A DNA stretch of 36,985 nucleotides from NCBI GenBank assembly GCA_030950085.1, contig JAUZRW010000265.1:1-36985 (forward strand), given 5' to 3'. The number at the start of each line of letters is the position of its first letter. Positions within the stretch are counted from its first letter, which is position 1. The notes under the pieces are model-generated. The model did not search any database, was not told the origin of the DNA, and worked only from the letters and a program-made list of their open reading frames with translations. A program made the translations under genes and the position numbers. This stretch comes from Anaerolineae bacterium. Its GTDB lineage: Bacteria; Chloroflexota; Anaerolineae; Aggregatilineales; Phototrophicaceae. Of this stretch, positions 14,412-32,609 are shown piece after piece.

Positions 14412-14497
14412 GGTGTTATTATCTGCCTTTTTGAAAGTCTTTTACTGCCCTATACTCATTACGCATAGTGATTATTGTACTGATGTTAGGTTCTACA

Positions 14498-15004
14498 ATG
14501 CGATATTATTTTTTCTCGCTCATATTTTTTCTTGCTGCTTGCGGCAATAGCGTGACAATGCCACAGGCAAGCATACCCATTGCAGTTGAAGCAGTGCCAA
14601 CTATCAGCCCAGATAATAGCCAATTGGCAGCAGCACAGCGCAATTACAACACACTTTGCGCTCATTGTCATGGTTATGGCGGTGACGGGCAACCCCTTGA
14701 GACTGCCGAGCGGACTGAAACATTGGGTTATCATACTGTCCCACTGCACAATTCGGCAGGGCATACATGGCAACATCCCGACCAACTGCTTTTTGAGACG
14801 ATTAAATATGGCGTAGAATCGCCCATCAATCTTTATACAATGACACCCTTTGGCGACTTGTTGAGTGACGACGAAATTTTTGCCATCATTGATTATCTGC
14901 GCCTGTGGTGGACAGATGACCAGCAAACATGGCAAGAGCAACTCACAACGCAATTCGCTGAAAATAATCCGTATTGGTCTGAATCACCAGTAGATGAGGA
15001 GTAA
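14498..15004 (+). CDS. Lipoprotein class I c-type cytochrome
   Basis: 168 residues from the ATG at 14498, chosen over a GTG 30 bases upstream because it gives a clean lipoprotein signal peptide (MRYYFFSLIFFLAACGNS, lipobox LAAC with Cys15). The single heme site is CAHCH at residues 54-58. The distal methionine is most likely in the MTPFGDLLSDDEIFAIIDYL segment, the typical C-terminal helix of cbb3-III-like cytochromes. It is membrane-anchored on the outer face. It is the first gene of the redox operon, with the next start six bases after its stop. It is a paralogue of the cytochrome at 18175 (AGHTW and the MPxFGELLSDEEI block are shared). Probably carries electrons; the partner is unknown. 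Confidence 0.85.
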   Translation: MRYYFFSLIFFLAACGNSVTMPQASIPIAVEAVPTISPDNSQLAAAQRNYNTLCAHCHGYGGDGQPLETAERTETLGYHTVPLHNSAGHTWQHPDQLLFETIKYGVESPINLYTMTPFGDLLSDDEIFAIIDYLRLWWTDDQQTWQEQLTTQFAENNPYWSESPVDEE

Positions 15005-15010
15005 AGAAGC

Positions 15011-15613
15011 ATGAGTCGTGCTAAACGCCGTAAATCTCAAAAGCAAAAAGGACAAAAACAATCAAATTGGTTGCTTCGAGGTGGCGCAGCTGTCGTTGCT
15101 ATCGTGATTGTTGGTCTTATTATCTTACAACTGAATACAGAACGTGAAGTCGTTTTAACCGAAGATGGTCGTCCCACTTGGCAGACAATAGAACTGCGTG
15201 ATGCTCGCACAGGTGAAACATTTACCTTAGCTGATTTTGATAACCAAGATGTGGTTGTTAAAATCACATCCCTGTTCTGAGGGACTTGCCTTCAAGTGCA
15301 GCGCAGTTTGCGTTCTGCCATCCCTGAACTTGGAACAGATAATTATAAATTCATTTCGCTCGTTGTGGATACCAATGTGACCGATGCTGATGTGGTCAAT
15401 TATGCCAACACACAAGGCTTTGATTGGACATTCACAGTTGCCGCGCCGGAATTCTTGACTGCCTTTGTGAATCAATTTGGACGCACAGTCGTTACAATCG
15501 GGAGTATGGGACATTTTGTCTTACGTCCAGATGGCTCACAATCGGAATTTTTCCTAGGTACGCCACCACCAGCGCAACTGATACAAGAAATCCGTAGTGT
15601 GAGCAGTCAGTGA
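15011..15613 (+). CDS. Candidate selenoprotein: membrane-anchored thioredoxin-fold protein with UxxC
   Basis: A single frame of 201 codons interrupted only by TGA at 15278-15280 (residue 90). Read as selenocysteine it gives VVVKITSLF-U-GTC-LQVQRSL, so U90 and C93 sit exactly where TlpA/SCO-like thioredoxin-fold proteins have the redox CxxC. Before it are a basic N-terminus, one transmembrane helix (about 19-41) and a beta-strand TFTLADF. After it come KFISLVVDTNVTDADVVNYA and GHFVLRPDGSQSE, all typical of the fold. A SECIS-like hairpin lies downstream (15298-15318). The ATG follows GGAG that overlaps the preceding stop. Alternatives are a nonsense mutation or a sequencing error at that one base. 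It would be a thiol-disulfide reductase or metallochaperone on the outer membrane face, reduced by the CcdA encoded next. Confidence 0.72.
15298..15318 (+). promoter_or_regulatory. Candidate bacterial SECIS element
   Basis: GCAG-CGCA-GTT-TGCG-(TT bulge)-CTGC stem-loop. It starts 17 bases after the in-frame TGA, and the apical loop begins 25 bases after it, with G as first loop base. Known bacterial SECIS elements have a small apical loop 16-37 bases from UGA with a G among the first loop positions, so the geometry fits. A second small stem, ACTTG-CCTT-CAAGT (15284-15297), competes or stacks below it. Confidence 0.5.
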
Positions 15614-15620
15614 AACAGCG

Positions 15621-16313
15621 ATGAATGATATTCTTGCCGCTTTTGTACTAGGCAACACAGCAATCTTGACGAATGTTTGCCTGTTGCCTCTCTATCCGGG
15701 ATTAGTAGCCTTCCTTGCTGGCAATGCGACACGCGCCGATAAACCAAAGGTGCAAGATGCAACGGCATGGCTGGGTGTATTCGTACTGGGGGGTATCCTC
15801 AGTACGATGTTGTTGATTGGCTTGGTACTTTTTCTGCTGCAACGTTCCTTTGCCTCTATACTGACCCTGCTACTACCAGCAACCTATTTGCTCATCATTA
15901 TTCTTGGCGTGATGACATTTATAGGACGTAATCCTTTTGCACGCATGGGAACATCGCAATCTCCGATGTTGAATAATCCTTACGCTACAGCGTATGCTTA
16001 CGGGGCTTTCCTTGCACCCATGACTCTACCCTGTACCGGACCTCTTATTCTGAGTACATTTGTCTTGGGTGTTGGAAGTGCGGTATCATTGGCTAATGGC
16101 TTACTCTTTTTTCTGGCATTTGGTCTAGGTTTTGGTTGGCCCTTGCTCGTATTACCAATCGTCGCACAATCAACGCAGCGTCATTTCATCACTTGGATGA
16201 AAGACAAGCATCAATTGCTCAATCAGGTTTCTGGAATCTTGCTGATTGTGATTGGCATTGCGGGTATCTGGTTTGAGTTGCTGCCGCTTTATGGCTACAA
16301 CTTCACAGCTTAA
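15621..16313 (+). CDS. ccdA: CcdA/DsbD-type transmembrane electron transporter
   Basis: 230-residue polytopic membrane protein with six or so helices. The two conserved redox cysteines of CcdA are visible: Cys20 in NVCLLPLYPGLVAFLAG and Cys138 in LAPMTLPCTGPLI. CcdA moves electrons from cytoplasmic thioredoxin through the membrane to reduce extracytoplasmic thioredoxin-fold proteins, notably those preparing apocytochrome c. The start lies seven bases after the candidate selenoprotein's stop, and the DsbA-like gene follows 12 bases after, so all are likely one operon. The length is typical of the family. Its place beside a UxxC and a CPYC protein supports the thiol-redox role. Confidence 0.88.
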   Translation: MNDILAAFVLGNTAILTNVCLLPLYPGLVAFLAGNATRADKPKVQDATAWLGVFVLGGILSTMLLIGLVLFLLQRSFASILTLLLPATYLLIIILGVMTFIGRNPFARMGTSQSPMLNNPYATAYAYGAFLAPMTLPCTGPLILSTFVLGVGSAVSLANGLLFFLAFGLGFGWPLLVLPIVAQSTQRHFITWMKDKHQLLNQVSGILLIVIGIAGIWFELLPLYGYNFTA

Positions 16314-16325
16314 AGGAGATTTTGT

Positions 16326-17165
16326 ATGGAAGATAGCACCACAGAATATGTTGAAATAGAACCAGAGAAAAATTCACAGATAGACAAACACGCATCACAA
16401 ACAGCGATGATTGCTAGTCTATTCTTGATAATTGGGATTCTGATTGGGGCATTTGGCTATGATGCCTTTATCAAGAGTCAGCGCGACATCATCGAAGAAG
16501 TGATTGAAGAAGTGATTGCCGCGCAATTTGATGGGCAAGATACCAGAATTGCTGAAACAGTCGTGACCACCTTACTAGACAATGTTCAAGGGCAACGACA
16601 ACCGGAACGTGCCGCACCGGGCGCGGGCCCACGCCGCGATGTTGATGACGATGGCGACCCCGCAATTGGTTCGGCGGATGCCCCTGTCGTCATTATTGAG
16701 TTCAGCGATTTTCGTTGTCCCTATTGTGGACGCTTTGCTACGACAACCATGGGTCCGCTACTAGAGGAATATGGCGACTATGTTTACTTCGTATATAGAG
16801 ATTTTGCCATTCTAGGCGCAGAATCTGTGAGTGCTGCGATTGCTGCGGAGTGTGCCAATGAACAAGGTGAATTCTGGGCATATCATGATTTATTATTTGC
16901 TAATCAGCAAAACCTGAATCAAAGTGCCTATATCGCATTTGCTGGCGAATTAGGTCTGGATGTTGATGCTTTTACGGGCTGTATTGACAATGAAACCTAT
17001 CTAGCAGAAGTACGGGCAGACACCGCAGCCGCACAGCAACTTGGGGCAACGGGAACACCGACATTCTATATCAATGGGCGCTTTGTCAGTGGCGCACAGC
17101 CTTATGAGGTCTTCGCTGCCATTATCGAAGAAGAACTTGTGGCGGCGGGTATTGAATTTGACTAA
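16326..17165 (+). CDS. Membrane-anchored DsbA/BdbD-like thioredoxin-fold protein
   Basis: 279 residues. One transmembrane helix (about 27-45) is followed by an acidic helical stretch (IIEEVIEEVIAAQ) and a Pro/Ala/Arg linker, which leads to a DsbA-like domain (DSBA/thioredoxin_4) on the outer face. The active site is CPYC at residues 131-134 after FSDFR, and the cis-proline loop is TGTPTFYINGR. Additional cysteines lie in AAECANEQ and FTGCIDN. It is probably a disulfide oxidase/isomerase for exported proteins. It follows ccdA in the same operon, with AAAGGAG before the ATG. The next 100 bases contain a hairpin, so it is probably the last gene of the first half of the locus. Confidence 0.88.
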   Translation: MEDSTTEYVEIEPEKNSQIDKHASQTAMIASLFLIIGILIGAFGYDAFIKSQRDIIEEVIEEVIAAQFDGQDTRIAETVVTTLLDNVQGQRQPERAAPGAGPRRDVDDDGDPAIGSADAPVVIIEFSDFRCPYCGRFATTTMGPLLEEYGDYVYFVYRDFAILGAESVSAAIAAECANEQGEFWAYHDLLFANQQNLNQSAYIAFAGELGLDVDAFTGCIDNETYLAEVRADTAAAQQLGATGTPTFYINGRFVSGAQPYEVFAAIIEEELVAAGIEFD

Positions 17166-17269: not shown

Positions 17270-18178
17270 ATGTCAGGTAATCACGACCATTCTCACAGTA
17301 CAAGCAACATCCGACTTGCATTTTTCCTCAATTTAAGTTTTACCATCTTCGAAATCATTGGTGGCTTGGCAACGAACAGCATCGCTATTCTTTCCGACGC
17401 AGTGCATGATTTAGGCGATAGTATTTCTCTTGGGATGGCATGGTTTCTCGGTAACTACTCTGAAAAAGACAGCAATCAGAAATATACCTATGGGTATCGC
17501 CGTTATTCACTACTAGGGGCATTGATTAATTCAGCCGTTTTAGTGGGTGGGTCGATTTTTGTACTCTCTGAGGCGATTCCCCGTCTCATGAATCCACAAT
17601 CGTTTGATGCACAAGGCATGGTCTTGGTGGCGATTGTCGGCGTGCTTGTCAATGGTGCTGCCGTTTTACGTCTGCGCGGTACATCATCCATGAATGCTGA
17701 AGTTGTCACATGGCACCTCTTAGAAGATGTTTTGGGTTGGGTGGCTGTGTTGGTTGTGGGTATCGTTTCGCTCTTTATTGATTTGCCGATTTTAGACCCG
17801 ATTTTGTCTATCCTGATTACGCTGTATGTTATGGGCAATGCTGTACAGAACTTGCGAAAAACAGTCATGCTATTTTTGCAAGCCTCTCCACAAGGTGTTG
17901 ATATGAAAGCGATTGATGAGCAATTACAGAAAATCGAAGGCGTGAAATCAACTCATCATACGCACATTTGGTCATTAGATGGCGAACACAATGTTTTTAC
18001 AAGCCATTTTGTCCTCTCCGATGGTATGAATTTTGCCACAGTGAGACGTATCAAGCGCGATGCTCGTGAGATTATCAAAGACTTGCGGCTTGAGCATACA
18101 ACCATTGAGTTTGAATTTAGCGATGCAGATTGTTCAATGGTTGAAGATGTTGTTGCCGATGAGGTACAGGGTAAATGA
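17270..18178 (+). CDS. Cation diffusion facilitator (zinc-type) efflux transporter
   Basis: 302 residues, six transmembrane helices and a cytoplasmic C-terminal domain, the CDF/ZnT layout. A His-rich N-terminus (NHDHSHS) is followed by the intramembrane site SDAVHDLGDS (His46, Asp50) in TM2 and a second site VTWHLLEDVLG in TM5. The His/Asp pairs indicate zinc rather than manganese. The C-terminal domain begins near MKAIDEQLQKIEGVK and contains HHTHIWSLDGEHNVFTSH, the metal-sensing fold. It exports Zn(II) (or Co/Cd) by proton antiport. The ATG at 17270 is chosen over a TTG one codon upstream, with AGGTG before it. Its stop overlaps the cytochrome start by four bases, so the two are translationally coupled. 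Confidence 0.9.
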   Translation: MSGNHDHSHSTSNIRLAFFLNLSFTIFEIIGGLATNSIAILSDAVHDLGDSISLGMAWFLGNYSEKDSNQKYTYGYRRYSLLGALINSAVLVGGSIFVLSEAIPRLMNPQSFDAQGMVLVAIVGVLVNGAAVLRLRGTSSMNAEVVTWHLLEDVLGWVAVLVVGIVSLFIDLPILDPILSILITLYVMGNAVQNLRKTVMLFLQASPQGVDMKAIDEQLQKIEGVKSTHHTHIWSLDGEHNVFTSHFVLSDGMNFATVRRIKRDAREIIKDLRLEHTTIEFEFSDADCSMVEDVVADEVQGK

Positions 18179-18666
18179 CAAGCAAAAATATTAGATACCT
18201 TGGCATAGCTATCGTATTAGCCGTCTCAGCGGCAGGCATCCTGTTTTTCGTCTATTCCACCCAAAAGGAAACAGACCTAGAGCGTTTCATTGCCACGAAC
18301 CCACAAGCCTATGAGACCGGGCAGCAGATTTTTGCCCAGACTTGTTCTGCTTGTCATGGACTCAATGGAGAAGGTCAATTCCCCGATAATCCACGACAAC
18401 GCGACGAAACAGGGCGTATTGGTGCGCCACCCCATACCGACGCAGGGCATACATGGCATCACGATGATGATTTGCTCTATCAGATAGTGCGTGAGGGCGG
18501 CATGGGCAATCCGGAAGATTTTTATCCGATGCCAGCTTTTGGGGAATTGTTGAGCGATGAAGAAATTGAAGCTGTGATTTTCTATATCAAAACCTTCTGG
18601 ACAGAAGAACATCGCCAGATGCAGCGTGCCAATACAGAGGCTGTTCGTAATCAGAATAATCCCTAA
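18175..18666 (+). CDS. Membrane-anchored class I c-type cytochrome
   Basis: 163 residues, with an N-terminal transmembrane helix (about 6-27, LGIAIVLAVSAAGILFFVYS) acting as anchor. The heme-binding motif is CSACH at 57-61, and the likely distal Met is in MPAFGELLSDEEIEAVIFYI. It shares the 'AGHTWHHDDDLL' block and C-terminal helix with the cytochrome at 14498, so the two are paralogues with different anchors (helix versus lipid). It overlaps the CDF gene by four bases (ATGA). A link between zinc export and electron transfer is not obvious; the coupling may reflect metal stress on the respiratory chain. The family call is firm. Confidence 0.85.
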   Translation: MTSKNIRYLGIAIVLAVSAAGILFFVYSTQKETDLERFIATNPQAYETGQQIFAQTCSACHGLNGEGQFPDNPRQRDETGRIGAPPHTDAGHTWHHDDDLLYQIVREGGMGNPEDFYPMPAFGELLSDEEIEAVIFYIKTFWTEEHRQMQRANTEAVRNQNNP

Positions 18667-24803: not shown

Positions 24804-27800
24804 ATGGGCAACTTTGCGTTAATCGCTATTATCATTGGCTTGCTTTTATTAGTTGGATTGGTCTTGTGGCTACGCAGTCGTGAAGAGACGAGCAAATCTG
24901 CCAATGCAGATGCTATTTTGGGTCGTGTACCCCAAGCCTCTGAGAATGTTTCTTCGGCTGTTTTTGTTACCGCCACTGGGTCGCTGATTCATAGCAACGA
25001 ATTAGCCTTGGACTGGATGGGAATGTCTGATGCCGAGCCTGATTTGGAAGATGTTTTAGAACTCGTGCAACCTGCCGACAATTTTGTGGAGTTACTCACG
25101 CAGGAATCGGCGACTTCTTTCCAAATTAATGGTCACTGGGTCGAAGCCACCTCACATTATGTTCCAAACCCTAGTGGGGCGCGGATGGTGGTTGTGATGC
25201 GCGAACTAGCACAGAAAAAGGCGAGTGCAGACGACAAGCAAGAAGATATTATGGATGTCTCTAAGGCGATGTCCATCATCAATGATATTGGGGAAACCGT
25301 CAACGCGGGTATGGGTATTGAACTCGCTCTACAGGTATTGCTAGAAATTCTCAATCGGGCTATCCCGTCTGATGCAGGTGAAATTTGCATTTACGATGAC
25401 GTGCGGAAATTTTTGCAACAACGCGGTTGGATTGGCGATACACGCTATCTGCTGACAGTTGCTTCGCATGGTGGCGGTTATGAAGAAGGTCAGGGGATTG
25501 CTGGATGGATGTGGCAGCATCGTAAACCAGTGCTTATTAGTGGTCGTCGTGACGCTGTGAGCATTCAGAATCTGATGAAAAATAACCCCTATAAAAGTGC
25601 TATCGGTGTTCCGATTTGGCTAGGGGATGTTTTCATCGGTACACTGACAATGTTTAGCGATGATACGGGCATTTATCACTCTGATGCCGTTTCGCTATTA
25701 CAAGCAGTTAGCAACGCCGTCGGTATGACAATCCGCAATGCTGAGATGTATGCTAAACAAGAAGACCGCATCCGTGATATTGCGAGTTTGCAGCAAATCG
25801 CCGAACAACCTAAAGGGGAACGCGGTGGTGGGGCAATTTATGCCTTGTTGAATGAGCGTATGGCAAAGCTGCTGGATGCGGATATGTGCGGTGTGCTGCT
25901 TTATGATGAAGTACGACAGGCGCTGATGCCACAATTGCCCTTCTATGGTTTGCCAGACCATGTGGCAGATAAAGTCATCATTCCAATGCCTCCCGACTCG
26001 CCACAATTTGATATATGGCGTAATCAACCGTATTGGGTCTCCAACGATATTCGGGATGAACCCCTGCTCGAAACATTGCAATTAGGGGGGATTGTTGAAG
26101 CGGCAGGCGTTGATAATACGGCGCTATTCCCGTTGCAAATTGCGGGCGAACGTATTGGTATTATGGCAATTAGCAATACAAAAAGCGGCTTCATGCCCAA
26201 CGATATACAAAATCTGCGCGTGCTGTCATCCCAAGCGGCTATCGTGGTAGAAAATGTACGGCTCTATGAACGGGAACGGCGCATTGATACGGAACTCGTC
26301 GGCTTGCAAGAAATGACTTATGCTATCGGCGCACTCAGTCATGAAGGTGAGTTCTATTACGAAATTACGGAACGCATCGCTCGCCTGATGGAAAGCCAAA
26401 TGTGTGGTGTGTTATTGTATGATGAGAATCGCGGCGCATTGGTCAGTCAATTGCCGTTTTATGGTGTCAGCGATGATGTCATTGCCGATTATGCGATTGA
26501 TGTCCCGTCTGGCTCAATTATGGAACAATTGTGGACTGAAGAAAACTTCTGGTTTAGTAATGCTGTGATGACTGATACCTTGGTTTTCGAGGCTGGACTA
26601 GACAATATTGCTGAGAAGGTCGGCATAGAGAAAACCCTAATCGCGGCTGTTACGGCTGGTGGACGGCGTATTGGTGTGCTTCAGGTGTCGAATAAGATTA
26701 GCGGTGTTGATTTCGATGGCAAAGATGCCCGTTTACTCCAGATTTTTGCGACACAAGCTGGGGCAATTATCGAAAATGCACGTCTCTATCGTGAGGTACA
26801 AGTTCGGGCAGACCAAGCCGAAAGTCTACGGCGTGTTGCAGAATTAGCCAGTACCACCATGACAACCGAACAATCGTTTATACCGGTTTTGCAAGAAATT
26901 GCGACTCTCATCAATAGTGACATGGTTTATATCAATGTTGTTGATTACAACACCAATACGCTTATTACCTACCCACGTTGGGTTTATGGTATCAACATAG
27001 ACCAACCTGTCCGCCAAAATTTGATGGAAGAGGGCTACGAGCATATTCCAGCATGCTCAGGACGCTATTTCCTCACCAATAATCTCGAAACAGATACCCG
27101 TATTTTGACAGGCTATAAAGAGGTAGCCGAAAAATTTGGTATCAAGAATAGTGTCATTGTGCCATTGATGGTGGGCGACCACTTACTCGGTGAATTAGGG
27201 GTTGCCAATCGTCGTGAGGGCATATATACCGAAGATGATGTCGCAACATTTAGCACCGTAGCCGCACAAATTACCGCATCTGTAGAACGATTAATGCTTT
27301 ATGAAGCGACGGGCGAGAATCTGCGTCGCCGTGTTGAAGAACTAAATGCTATTGCCCGTATCAGTAACCAGTTAACTGTCACAGTTGAGTTAGATAAAGT
27401 GTTAGAAGTCATCCGCGAAGAGGCAGCAAAGGCGACTTATGCTGATGCTGGGTCGATTGTTTTGCTACGCCCTGTGGCTGATGAAAATGGTGATAATAAG
27501 CCCCAAATAGATAAACGCATTGGTGTCATTGAGAACTTGCGTGATTTTGCACCAATTGAGTATGAAGCGATTTTGAAAGCTAATGAAGCGGTTGTTGTTC
27601 ATGATTATGATGAATCTAACGCCTTAACAGCTTTTCCAAGCACTGCGCGTTCGGCACTCGCCGCACCTATCCTTTACCTTGAGAATGTTGTGGGTGTCAT
27701 CCATGTGTATGACAAAGACCCCAACGCCTTTGATGAGCAAGCATCGGTTTTCTTGATGACCCTTTCCGCAAAAGCATCATTAGCCTATCAGAATGCCTTG

Positions 27801-30800
27801 CTCTATAACCAGCAGATGGAACGGAGTGAAGTATTGCGGCGACGGGTTGACCAGTTGAATCGCATCTTTGAACTAGGGCAGATGGTACAAAGCGATACCG
27901 ACCCTGTGATGGTGCTAGAGGCGATTGCTTATAGTGTGCAACAATCAGTGGGTTTTGATAGTGTACTGATGACCCTTTTCGATGAAGATGAAGGCGTATT
28001 GCGGCGTGTCGCACAAGCGGGTATGCCTCTAATGGCTTTTATCGAATCACAAGAACGTATTTTAACAAGAGAGCAACTGGATAAGATTTTACAAGATGAA
28101 TTCCGTACCAGCGAAACTTACTTTTTCCCTGTGGAAAGGGTTAAAGATTGGTACACGCCAGATATCAATGCGCTCAGTGCATCTTACGAAGATAATCGTA
28201 GTGTTGATGTCCGTAGTAAAGAGTCATGGCATGATGGTGATATGTTGCTCGTGACTATCAATGGGCAAAATAACCAACTTTTAGGAGTCGTTTCACTAGA
28301 CCGTCCTTATAATAATCTTCGCCCCAACCGTGGCACGATTGAAGTTTTGGAAATTTTCGCGCATCAAGCCTCTAATTTGGTTGAAAATACCCGTATCTTC
28401 CGTGAAAGCCAACGCAGTGCGGAACATGAAGCGACGCTGAACGACACGCTAGAAGCTATTTCTGGTACATTGGATTTGAATGAGATGGCTGTTTCGCTGG
28501 CAACAGGGGTTCATGACCTTGTTCCATTTGACCGTTTGACATTGGTGCTGCTCAACGAACAAGATGAGGCGTTTGATTATTTGCGGACAACCTTTAACGA
28601 TGACGGCGACTCCGAACTTGTAGAAAGCCAACATAGTACGCTTGAACAGACAGCATTAGGGCGTACTTTTGATGAGCGTGAAGTCTATACCTATACAGTT
28701 GATGATGATGCCGTCAAAAATTATGATGATTTGCGCTCATGGTACGCGCAGGGTGAACAATCCACGATTATTCTCCCACTTTCATCAGGTGGTGAGTGTC
28801 TCGGTGCTTTGCATCTTGGTAGCAATGACCCACATTTATTGACAGGCTTCGATGTCTTACAAATCTTGCTGAGAACAGCGCAGATTGTCGCCAGTACCGT
28901 TCAGAATGCGCGTTTATTCAACCAAACAATGAACTTGCAAGTATTGAATCGTTCGGTTGTCGAGTCTATTCAGCAAGGGATTGTTGTGCTGGATAGTAGT
29001 GGACGCATCATCAGCATTAATGACTTCATGAAAAATAAATACGATTGGGATGATTCTGCACGCGGACAAGATTTGTTTGTCTATCAACCCGATTTAGCCG
29101 ATTTCTTGGTGGGCGATTTGCAGACTGTCTTGGAAAAAGGGGAACAGACCGAACATTTTAATAAACCATCTAGCACAGCAAAAGACGCGATTGTGCGTAA
29201 TTTCTACCTCTACCCACTGCGGTCTGGTGAGCAGGTGCGTGGGGCGGTGTTGTTGGTCGAAGATGTGACCGAACGCACACGGCTAGAAGAAGCGATTGAA
29301 AACCGCGCTAATCAACTTGCCGCATTGACAGAGGTTTCGACACGTATTACAGCTTCTTTAGAACGTGAAGAAGTTATCGAACTGGGGATGGATGAAATGG
29401 GTTGGATTATCCCCTTCGATACGATGACGATGTGGCGGCGCAACGGCTCATTTATGGTTCTGGAAGGGGGCAGTGGTTTTGACGAAAAGTTAGCCGATGA
29501 CTTCCATTTTCGCTTCCCTGATTATGATGTTGTGCAACAGCTTGTCGAGACAAAGCGCGTCATAAATCTTACGGCGACAAATGATGAAATTCCACAAATT
29601 GGTTTACCGAGCGATGAATCTATCCAAAGTTGGATGGGTGTGCCGCTTGTTAATCAAGGGCATGTCGTTGGCATGTTTATGCTGACAAAAGATGACCCCG
29701 ATTCGTATATCACACGGCAAGAGCATCATGTGGCATTTGCCTTTGCATCACAAGTAGCGATTGCCCTAGCCAATGCCGACCTCTTTGAACAAACATTTGA
29801 ACGCACGAATGAACTGGGAACACTTTTAGAAGCCGCACAATCGACATCCCTCACCCGTGATTTGAACGATGTGTTCAACACGGTTGCTGAGTTGATGTTC
29901 AGTGCCTTAGAAATGGAAAACTGTACCATCCTCATCTGGGATGAAGTCGATAATGAACTGGAAGTACAATTCAGTGGTAATCGTAGGCGCGATGACCAAC
30001 TCTTATTGTCCTTGGGAACACGTTACAGCGTATCGGATTATCCGGCACGGCAAAAAGCATTGCGTGACCGTGAAGTGGTGGTCATTGTTGATATTGAAGA
30101 TAAAAGCCGCGTTGCCCCTTACCCCTCCGAAATAGAAGAAATGCGGACATCTGGTAACACTGCGCGGATGATTGTGCCGTTGGTCGTGCGTGACCAAGCG
30201 ATTGGGCTTATCCAATTGGAGCAGGTTTCCAATGAGGAAGATGGGGTTTCTCAGCAAAAAGTTCGTTTGGCGCGTGCCTTGGGCTCACAGGTAGCGGTTG
30301 CCATTGAAAATGCTCGTCTTACCAGCGAAACAACAGCTCGCTTTGAAGAATTGCTGACGATTAATCAACTTTCGCAGGCAATTTCTTCCACATTGAAATT
30401 GGAAGATATGATGCCCATCATTCGTGACCAAGTGCCACAGGTGACAAGTGCTGAGGAGTTGTATCTCGCTCTGTATAATCCTGTCGATGAAAAGATTACT
30501 TTCCCACTAGCGGTACGTGGTGATGGCGAAGAGTTTCTAATTCCAACACGTCAACTAGGAAATGATGAGGTCTCCTATATCATTAAAAGAAAACATTCGT
30601 TGAGTCTGGGTGCGGATTATTTCAGCATTGATGAACTACGAAAAAGTATGAAAATTAGCAACGGCGAAGGGGATGTGAAAGCCTATATGGGTGTGCCACT
30701 TAAATCTGGCGATGAAGTGCTGGGTGTGCTGGCTATCCGTAACTTCGAGCGCAAGCGTGCCTTTACCCTCAATGATGACCGTATTCTGACCACAGTGGGG

Positions 30801-32609
30801 TCACAATTGGGCGCGGCTATTCAGAATGCCCGTCTTTTTGAGCGTATTCAAGAATCAGCAGAAGTGTTAGAAGGTCTGGTGCAAGAGCGGACTGATGAAC
30901 TAGAAGAAGAACGTGACCGTCTGGACACACTGTATCAGATTACGTCGGAATTGGCGCGAACACTGGATATGGAACAATTGCTAGAACGTTCACTTGGGAT
31001 GGTGAGTAAGGCTGTCGGTGCTGATGATGGTGTTATTATGCTCAATGACCCAGCAACGGATAATCTCTACTCACGAGCATGGATTAACCCTAATCATCTC
31101 ATTAGCCTTGAGAACGAAGATATTCGTACTCATCCGGCAGAAGGTTTGGCAACTTGGTTGATTAACAATGATAATACGAGTGAGCACGTTGTTGTGATTG
31201 AAGACCTCAATGATATGGATTACTGGGATGAGGCTGGACGTAAAACAGGCTTACGCAGTGCCTTGGCGGTGATGCTGGAAAATAATGAAGACCCGATGGG
31301 TGTGATGGTGTTGCTGGCTAAAGACCCCGGCGCATTCACAGAAAGTCACCTCAAATTACTTGTACCAGCAGCTAATCAGGTGGCAGCAGCCATCAATAGT
31401 GCTGACTTGTATCAACTCATCCGCGACCAAGCAGATCGCATGGGTAAATTGCTCCGTAACGAACAAGAAGAAGCACAGAAGAATAGTGCTATCCTCGAAA
31501 GTATTGAAGATGGTGTCATGCTTGCCAACTTCTCTGGCGAAATTGTCTTGTTCAATAGCTCGGCAGAACGTATTCTGGAATTAGCTCGCGACCAAGCAAT
31601 CGGTCAGAATGTGAATAAATTGACGGGGATTTATGGTGTATCGGCAAATCGCTGGACACAACTCATCAATGATTGGGCTAAAAGTGCGGAACATCCACAA
31701 TTTGTTGAAGAAAGTGTCACGGAACAAATCAAGTTAGGTGATAAAATCATTCAGACACAACTCTCACCTGTCTATATTGGCGACCTCTTCTTAGGAACAT
31801 TATCTGTATTCCGTGATATCACCAAAGATGTTGAGGCTGACCAAGCAAAATCGGCTTTTATTGCCAATGTATCACACGAATTTCGTACCCCATTAACACC
31901 CATTAAGGGCTTCGCGGATTTGCTGCTGATGAATGCCAGTGGTGCTTTGAGCGAGATGCAAGTGGATATGGTGCAGCGCATCAAAGACAATACACAGCGC
32001 CTAGAAGTGCTGGTTGAAGATGTGTTGAACATCTCGAAACTTGATAGTGGTGAAAGTACACTACAAATGGTGATGGTGAACTTGCGCGACTTTGTGACAA
32101 AATTACTAGACGAAATTGCCAATAATCCCACCAATACCGAGAAAAACCTAAAACATTCACTTCATCTGGCGGATGATATCCCATTCATCCGGGCTGATAA
32201 AGATAAGCTGCACGATATTCTCAAGAATGTGATTGATAATGCTTTCAATTATACGCTGGCAGGGGGTGAGGTGAGTGTTACTGTGGAGCGTTTGGCGGAT
32301 GCTGAAGCTGTACAGATAACGATTGTCGATAGCGGTGTGGGTATCCCCGAAGAATTCCATAGTGCAGTGTGGCGACGCTTTGAACGCCATGACCAAACGG
32401 CTGTTACACTTGATATTGCTGGAACGGGCTTGGGACTTTCGCTTGCAAAAGAATTGGTTCGCTTGCACAATGGGGATATCTGGTTTGAATCGACAGTTGA
32501 TGTCGGCACGACATTTTTTATCCGCTTGCCTATCGAACAAGCCAATTATCGCACTTCAACAATTGAGATGCCAGCAGTAGACGAAACTGAATCAATAGCA
32601 GGGGATTAA
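24804..32609 (+). CDS. Giant multi-GAF sensor histidine kinase (2601 residues)
   Basis: Membrane-anchored hybrid-free sensor kinase. One transmembrane helix (about 5-24) is followed by a PAS-like segment. Then come about eleven GAF domains, roughly at residues 169-320, 338-490, 503-663, 676-835, 848-1003, 1013-1200, 1212-1373, 1504-1663, 1671-1840, 1850-2013 and 2039-2203. A PAS domain lies after the seventh (about 1379-1493) and another after the last (2226-2343). A coiled coil with VQERTDELEEERDRLDTLY precedes the last GAF. The HisKA domain has SHEFRTPLTPIKGFADLLL with His2358. The ATPase domain shows NVIDNAFNYT, DSGVGIPEE and GTGLGLSLAKEL. It is followed after three bases by a CheY-like gene. 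It probably senses several small ligands or redox/light cues via the GAFs; which ones cannot be read from the sequence. Confidence 0.93.
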   Translation: MGNFALIAIIIGLLLLVGLVLWLRSREETSKSANADAILGRVPQASENVSSAVFVTATGSLIHSNELALDWMGMSDAEPDLEDVLELVQPADNFVELLTQESATSFQINGHWVEATSHYVPNPSGARMVVVMRELAQKKASADDKQEDIMDVSKAMSIINDIGETVNAGMGIELALQVLLEILNRAIPSDAGEICIYDDVRKFLQQRGWIGDTRYLLTVASHGGGYEEGQGIAGWMWQHRKPVLISGRRDAVSIQNLMKNNPYKSAIGVPIWLGDVFIGTLTMFSDDTGIYHSDAVSLLQAVSNAVGMTIRNAEMYAKQEDRIRDIASLQQIAEQPKGERGGGAIYALLNERMAKLLDADMCGVLLYDEVRQALMPQLPFYGLPDHVADKVIIPMPPDSPQFDIWRNQPYWVSNDIRDEPLLETLQLGGIVEAAGVDNTALFPLQIAGERIGIMAISNTKSGFMPNDIQNLRVLSSQAAIVVENVRLYERERRIDTELVGLQEMTYAIGALSHEGEFYYEITERIARLMESQMCGVLLYDENRGALVSQLPFYGVSDDVIADYAIDVPSGSIMEQLWTEENFWFSNAVMTDTLVFEAGLDNIAEKVGIEKTLIAAVTAGGRRIGVLQVSNKISGVDFDGKDARLLQIFATQAGAIIENARLYREVQVRADQAESLRRVAELASTTMTTEQSFIPVLQEIATLINSDMVYINVVDYNTNTLITYPRWVYGINIDQPVRQNLMEEGYEHIPACSGRYFLTNNLETDTRILTGYKEVAEKFGIKNSVIVPLMVGDHLLGELGVANRREGIYTEDDVATFSTVAAQITASVERLMLYEATGENLRRRVEELNAIARISNQLTVTVELDKVLEVIREEAAKATYADAGSIVLLRPVADENGDNKPQIDKRIGVIENLRDFAPIEYEAILKANEAVVVHDYDESNALTAFPSTARSALAAPILYLENVVGVIHVYDKDPNAFDEQASVFLMTLSAKASLAYQNALLYNQQMERSEVLRRRVDQLNRIFELGQMVQSDTDPVMVLEAIAYSVQQSVGFDSVLMTLFDEDEGVLRRVAQAGMPLMAFIESQERILTREQLDKILQDEFRTSETYFFPVERVKDWYTPDINALSASYEDNRSVDVRSKESWHDGDMLLVTINGQNNQLLGVVSLDRPYNNLRPNRGTIEVLEIFAHQASNLVENTRIFRESQRSAEHEATLNDTLEAISGTLDLNEMAVSLATGVHDLVPFDRLTLVLLNEQDEAFDYLRTTFNDDGDSELVESQHSTLEQTALGRTFDEREVYTYTVDDDAVKNYDDLRSWYAQGEQSTIILPLSSGGECLGALHLGSNDPHLLTGFDVLQILLRTAQIVASTVQNARLFNQTMNLQVLNRSVVESIQQGIVVLDSSGRIISINDFMKNKYDWDDSARGQDLFVYQPDLADFLVGDLQTVLEKGEQTEHFNKPSSTAKDAIVRNFYLYPLRSGEQVRGAVLLVEDVTERTRLEEAIENRANQLAALTEVSTRITASLEREEVIELGMDEMGWIIPFDTMTMWRRNGSFMVLEGGSGFDEKLADDFHFRFPDYDVVQQLVETKRVINLTATNDEIPQIGLPSDESIQSWMGVPLVNQGHVVGMFMLTKDDPDSYITRQEHHVAFAFASQVAIALANADLFEQTFERTNELGTLLEAAQSTSLTRDLNDVFNTVAELMFSALEMENCTILIWDEVDNELEVQFSGNRRRDDQLLLSLGTRYSVSDYPARQKALRDREVVVIVDIEDKSRVAPYPSEIEEMRTSGNTARMIVPLVVRDQAIGLIQLEQVSNEEDGVSQQKVRLARALGSQVAVAIENARLTSETTARFEELLTINQLSQAISSTLKLEDMMPIIRDQVPQVTSAEELYLALYNPVDEKITFPLAVRGDGEEFLIPTRQLGNDEVSYIIKRKHSLSLGADYFSIDELRKSMKISNGEGDVKAYMGVPLKSGDEVLGVLAIRNFERKRAFTLNDDRILTTVGSQLGAAIQNARLFERIQESAEVLEGLVQERTDELEEERDRLDTLYQITSELARTLDMEQLLERSLGMVSKAVGADDGVIMLNDPATDNLYSRAWINPNHLISLENEDIRTHPAEGLATWLINNDNTSEHVVVIEDLNDMDYWDEAGRKTGLRSALAVMLENNEDPMGVMVLLAKDPGAFTESHLKLLVPAANQVAAAINSADLYQLIRDQADRMGKLLRNEQEEAQKNSAILESIEDGVMLANFSGEIVLFNSSAERILELARDQAIGQNVNKLTGIYGVSANRWTQLINDWAKSAEHPQFVEESVTEQIKLGDKIIQTQLSPVYIGDLFLGTLSVFRDITKDVEADQAKSAFIANVSHEFRTPLTPIKGFADLLLMNASGALSEMQVDMVQRIKDNTQRLEVLVEDVLNISKLDSGESTLQMVMVNLRDFVTKLLDEIANNPTNTEKNLKHSLHLADDIPFIRADKDKLHDILKNVIDNAFNYTLAGGEVSVTVERLADAEAVQITIVDSGVGIPEEFHSAVWRRFERHDQTAVTLDIAGTGLGLSLAKELVRLHNGDIWFESTVDVGTTFFIRLPIEQANYRTSTIEMPAVDETESIAGD

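Follow-up and report, generated by a model that had tools for sequence, protein, structure and literature searches.

Does a TGA codon in the middle of a thioredoxin-like gene end its translation, or is it read as selenocysteine (Sec)? The question is raised by a frame at positions 15011-15613 of a 36,985-nucleotide stretch of DNA from an Anaerolineae bacterium; this whole stretch, which we call the window, was analysed together with the genome it belongs to and with homologous loci of related genomes. The frame in question, its elements and the gene that follows it lie on the forward strand.

One reading frame with a TGA at the redox site

The frame comprises 201 codons, that is 200 residues and a TGA stop at 15611-15613. 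An AGGAG motif (14997-15001) placed 9 bases 5' of the ATG is presumably its ribosome-binding site. The sole internal TGA is codon 90 (15278-15280), the proposed selenocysteine, aligned with the first cysteine of a CxxC motif; with the TGC codon 93 (15287-15289), which contributes the other member of the redox pair and lies in an invariant column, it gives the site U-G-T-C. With the standard code, the frame yields two ORFs, one of 89 and one of 105 residues.

A preliminary description of this DNA, made from its letters, had claimed one continuous frame with a single TGA at the CxxC position, two flanks that form one protein with no frameshift, and a standard annotation that would split the gene into an 89-residue fragment and a second short gene. 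All of this stands. The stretches 5' and 3' of the TGA both align with one protein family without a frameshift, and the invariant CxxC columns of that family are occupied here by U90 (entered as C in the alignment) and C93. The 74 relatives compared are on average 47% identical over residues 55-89, 35% over residues 91-150 and 30% over residues 151-198.

Homologues carry cysteine or TGA at the same codon

We searched 61 genomes, the window's own and 60 relatives, and found matches in 26 of them. A search across the class gave matches in 198 of 396 genomes at E 1e-8, with 51 rows above 100 bits: five of these rows, from four genomes (G000, G011 twice, G015 and G092), contain one TGA, and one row (G373) contains a TAA. 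The 78 loci gathered come mostly from Anaerolineae and other Chloroflexota, with some from Trueperaceae and Spirochaetota, one from a cyanobacterium and one labelled DPANN.

Re-reading 158 loci yielded 147 domain matches, 130 with CxxC and 14 with UxxC; the remaining 3 are unaligned at this column. After merging repeats among the fetched loci and removing the three unaligned and the short-flank ones, 97 distinct sequences were left, and their catalytic codon is Cys in 91 cases and TGA in six, the two states at residue 90 that the preliminary description had expected of homologues. Their aligned domains contain no further in-frame TGA; as each frame was ended at any TAA or TAG, an extra TGA is the only stop that this count can register.

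The six TGA sequences belong to five genomes: the window's own, G011 with two genes in tandem on the contig of L126 (WTGJ01000022), G015 (L035 = L113), the genome of L137 (JALHQT010000006) and G092 (L155). A phylum-wide search at E 1e-25 matched 22 of 400 genomes and revealed no additional Sec genome among them; its 25 loci, re-read together with L058, make 26 sequences, 24 with Cys and two with TGA (the window and G092). Two of the phylum sequences contain TAA and TAG, 107 and 105 codons past the redox site, near the end of the domain.

Selenocysteine machinery

The genome of the window, 97% complete in 266 contigs, possesses all four components of the Sec machinery that the preliminary description had proposed to look for. 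The tRNA-Sec is located at C124:13382-13474 (64.7 bits against a cut-off of 47; tRNA-SeC(tca) according to ARAGORN), selA on contig C164 (571.8 bits), selB on C237 (369.6 bits, spanning positions 2-578 of 581) and selD on C189 (366.1 bits). The selD gene has one in-frame TGA of its own, which we read as lying within AG-TGA-ASK near the start (L156:2004-2006, minus strand, C189), a usual place for Sec in SelD; the SelD of this genome is probably a selenoprotein too. Within the window, Rfam at gathering cut-offs and ARAGORN found nothing, the tRNA-Sec being on another contig. Formate dehydrogenase alpha is a frequent Sec protein; its best match in this genome has no in-frame stop and thus gives no evidence of another Sec client.

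Both selA and selB are above cut-off in all five TGA-bearing genomes. In G011 and G015 the tRNA-Sec exceeds its cut-off as well; for G092 and the L137 genome the matches above cut-off are selA and selB. Relatives in which no selA exceeds the cut-off (e.g. G002, G025, G027) have the Cys form. Since Cys forms also occur in genomes with the machinery (e.g. G003, G005, G009), the link between machinery and Sec runs one way.

The continuation of the frame past the TGA would also fit a UGA that stands for an ordinary amino acid in an altered code, or one that is read through without targeting. We rejected an altered genetic code, as TGA ends 8 of the 29 ORFs of the window (genes picked by eye), this one included. 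The full Sec machinery of the genome and the Cys found at this codon in 91 of the 97 relatives speak further against either variant, to which we attach hardly any credence.

A SECIS-like hairpin downstream of the TGA

A SECIS-like hairpin occupies positions 15298-15318, with an apical stem of four pairs (15301-15304 with 15310-15313). The rules for bacterial SECIS elements, as quoted in PMC13188914, place the loop 16-37 nt past the UGA and a G among its first two bases. The hairpin of the window agrees with them: in the tighter fold its loop, GUU, starts after 25 nt and its first base is G, just as the preliminary description had it.

In five Sec genes the sequence 3' of the UGA aligns without gaps and shares the pattern CAGCGC-N-G-NNN-GCG, in which 24 nt lead from the UGA to a five-base loop with G as second base, closed by four pairs. 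Four stem pairs together with a G among the first two bases of the loop occur at this position in 5 of 6 Sec sequences versus 3 of 91 Cys sequences (Fisher p 5e-6, for related rows and a comparison devised after the Sec sequences were inspected). Of the 29 ORFs of the window, eight end in TGA, and none of these stops is followed by such a stem. The best rule-conforming hairpin has a mean energy of -10.4 kcal/mol in the six Sec sequences, against -5.2 in the 91 Cys sequences (Mann-Whitney p 0.007).

The hairpin of the window, at -6.8, lies inside the range of the Cys sequences. For its 48-nt fold z is -0.79 and 36 of 200 shuffles are as stable; for the 88-nt fold z is -1.95, with 6 of 200. We did not accept folding energy by itself as evidence of a SECIS element; the stability of the window's hairpin is not above chance. 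Weaker hairpins allowed by the loose rules (-3.4 to -5.9) follow three of the eight TGA stops, including the gene's own. Among the five aligned Sec sequences the hairpin exhibits no compensatory (double) changes. One Sec sequence, L155, has no such stem in this position but another, stronger hairpin. What gives the hairpin weight is its recurrence: other TGA genes have it in the matching position, whereas the window's eight TGA stops are not followed by it.

Four Cys genes (L019, L131, L124, L134) have all four stem pairs, L019 without the loop G. All of them group with two Sec sequences in a single clade of eight rows (support 100/86); these Cys genes may be former Sec genes, or their stem may arise from Gln-Arg-x-x-Arg codons alone.

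The TGA at 15278-15280 is known from a single assembly, and a sequencing or assembly error could have created it. Four other genomes likewise have TGA at this codon of the redox site, and the hairpin recurs 3' of it, so that such an error is extremely improbable.

Evolution of the family and oddities of the window copy

On a tree of 96 rows (143 columns, many weak forks), the distribution of Sec takes five state changes, at least four of which are forced by well-supported branches. At L137:2980-4173, a Sec copy and then a Cys copy of the same protein stand side by side.

The protein of the window sits on a long branch (0.94). At residue 167 (15509-15511), which we take to be the cis-proline position from the family pattern, as in thioredoxins, 73 of 75 rows have proline, one has a gap and the window protein has glycine. 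Residue 89 is Trp in 73 of the 75 rows, Phe in the window protein and Thr in one row, and at residues 163-164 the window protein has Ile-Gly where proline prevails at both positions (63 and 72 of the 75 rows, respectively). The long branch and the missing cis-proline and Trp could reflect relaxed constraint.

These same traits, along with the single base that separates TGC from TGA, would suit a decaying gene copy in which a nonsense mutation hit the Cys codon. Decay is nevertheless hard to reconcile with the 110 codons past the TGA, free of any other stop or frameshift, or with the five other distinct sequences that have TGA at the same codon and nowhere else in their aligned domains. All five TGA genomes have selA and selB, moreover, and the window gene has its SECIS-like stem in common with four of the other five Sec sequences. 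We consider decay very unlikely.

Domain and fold of the protein

Pfam Redoxin (PF08534) matches the protein with 27.8 bits (cut-off 26.6), the site being U-G-T-C; AhpC-TSA reaches 22.3 bits, under its cut-off of 26, and no NCBIfam model matches at its cut-off. The AlphaFold2 model, based on a 75-row alignment, has a mean pLDDT of 89.1, with values of 86-98 per ten-residue block from residue 51 onward. It contains a thioredoxin-fold domain in which residue 90 is placed immediately ahead of a helix formed by residues 91-107. A helix of residues 15-43 (15053-15139; pLDDT 60-84 here) coincides with a hydrophobic stretch and is a probable membrane anchor.

The top structural matches to the model are ResA, aq_2194 of Aquifex, TlpA and SCO, with PrxQ also matched, in keeping with the TlpA/SCO-like fold that had been read from the sequence. 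ResA (1st9_B) superposes with Z 17.1 and rmsd 2.1 over 134 residues; human SCO1 (1wp0_A), ranked below it, with Z 14.9 and rmsd 2.4 over 141 residues. A sequence-only search of solved structures gave 3or5_A as its only match (E 0.003). As modelled, then, the protein is an N-terminal helix followed by a TlpA/ResA-like thioredoxin-fold domain. We infer that it is exported, with the domain probably at the outer face of the membrane.

A CcdA/DsbD-like partner gene

Seven bases separate the stop of the proposed selenoprotein from the ATG of the next gene (15621-16313), which encodes a putative membrane partner of the CcdA/DsbD-like type with cysteines C20 (15678-15680) and C138 (16032-16034). By tblastn, this partner was detected at 120 of 139 loci. 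Of 135 thioredoxin-bearing loci, 115 have it on the same strand and no more than 900 bases downstream, a count in which copies from the window itself and multiple copies of one contig are included. Both cysteines are invariant across all 81 distinct partner sequences, and the partner of the window is 51-60% identical to the 35 relatives compared.

Pfam DsbD_TM matches 10 of 36 members of the partner family at E 0.1 or better (best 3e-9), and no Pfam model matches the partner of the window at E values up to 1. We call it CcdA-like rather than CcdA. Its structural model is of low confidence (pLDDT 65.8), and a PDB sequence search returned no match of note.

Among the Sec genes, only that of the window has the partner directly downstream. 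In G011 the partner, 43% identical, lies upstream of the Sec gene pair; the fetched flanks of L035/L113, L137 and L155 gave no match to it. With the window copies excluded, tblastn for other neighbours over the 139 loci, many of which span just 1.5 to 3 kb per side, found a DsbA-like gene three times, an efflux gene once and cytochrome c in none. In these sequences no conservation of other neighbour genes was seen.

Within the window, positions 16326-17165 encode a DsbA-like protein with Cys at its CPYC site, which scores 148.7 bits against NF041057 (Rcas_1661 thioredoxin-like (seleno)lipoprotein), under the cut-off of 190. Two cytochrome c genes (14468-15004 and 18175-18666), about 30% identical to each other, flank the redox genes.

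Proposed decoding and electron pathway

From the alignment with Cys, the machinery and the recurrence of the hairpin in other TGA genes, we infer that UGA codon 90 is read as selenocysteine, with a probability of roughly 95%. The ordinary stability of the hairpin, the absence of its stem in L155, the long branch and a partner that is usually not directly downstream of Sec genes were counted against this reading. The preliminary description had arrived at a Sec-containing oxidoreductase, and the machinery, the Cys/TGA homologues and the rule-conforming hairpin support it.

We propose that the UGA of codon 90 would be decoded by the genome's own SelA, SelB, tRNA-Sec and SelD, with insertion guided by the hairpin shortly downstream; the terminal UGA of the same gene would serve as stop. 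The N-terminal helix would anchor the product, leaving the TlpA/ResA-like domain probably at the outer membrane face, where the U90-C93 pair most likely reduces disulfides or similar substrates. Sec would ionise more readily and react faster than Cys. The CcdA-like protein would re-reduce the pair, electrons passing from the Cys pair of the partner to U90/C93 and on to the outside substrate. This supply of electrons to the Sec-Cys pair is suggested by the position of the CcdA-like gene, next in line here and the usual neighbour of the family, and we regard it as reasonably probable. As for the biological role, the likeness to ResA/TlpA and the nearby cytochrome c genes lead us to a guess, namely maturation of cytochrome c or of cytochrome oxidase.

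The glycine in place of the cis-proline and the phenylalanine in place of Trp would allow a different assignment, in which the Sec-Cys pair, rather than being a plain disulfide reductase, forms a metal-binding or peroxide-type site, a Sec counterpart of SCO or PrxQ fed by the CcdA-like protein as a membrane reductase. We find this unlikely.

Relation to known redox proteins and selenoproteins

ResA and TlpA, with CcdA, are cytochrome maturation thioredoxins. The window protein shares with them the fold, the N-terminal anchor and the CcdA-like neighbour, and differs in having Sec for the first Cys and Gly at the cis-proline position. By fold and context it appears to work like the TlpA/ResA type; because of Gly167 we do not file it as ResA or TlpA proper. 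The SCO copper chaperones also share its fold (1wp0_A), but their site is CxxxC plus His, whereas that of the window protein is UxxC.

Selenoproteins of the UxxC redoxin and TlpA-like kinds are already known in print. The tables of a 2026 review (PMC13188914) include 'Redoxin family protein PF08534 UxxC' and 'Thiol-disulfide isomerase-like protein cd02966 UxxC'; PMC2398784 gives 68 Prx-like 3 (pfam08534, UxxC) and 321 Trx-like 1 (COG0526, UxxC) sequences, and a Redoxin family UxxC protein is also present in PMC9312934. Going by these entries, the window protein is alike in its PF08534 match, the UxxC at the redox site and the TlpA-like fold. Compared by description, the window copy differs from them in lacking the presumed cis-proline and in standing beside a CcdA-like gene. 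Words starting with 'Chloroflex' or 'Anaerolin' are absent from the main text of PMC13188914, and in the portions of PMC13188914, PMC2398784 and PMC9312934 available to us we found no description of the family, of the CcdA-like partner or of the cis-proline loss.

Reading codon 90 as Sec restores a gene that would be broken in two by standard annotation, and would add selenoproteins to Chloroflexota. In addition, Cys and Sec forms are interspersed in this family, down to both in one genome (L137), so the contribution of Sec to a thiol reductase of this kind becomes testable in closely matched pairs.

Farther along the window, positions 24804-32609 hold an ORF of 2601 residues that by eye resembles a sensor histidine kinase in which sensor domains are repeated many times.
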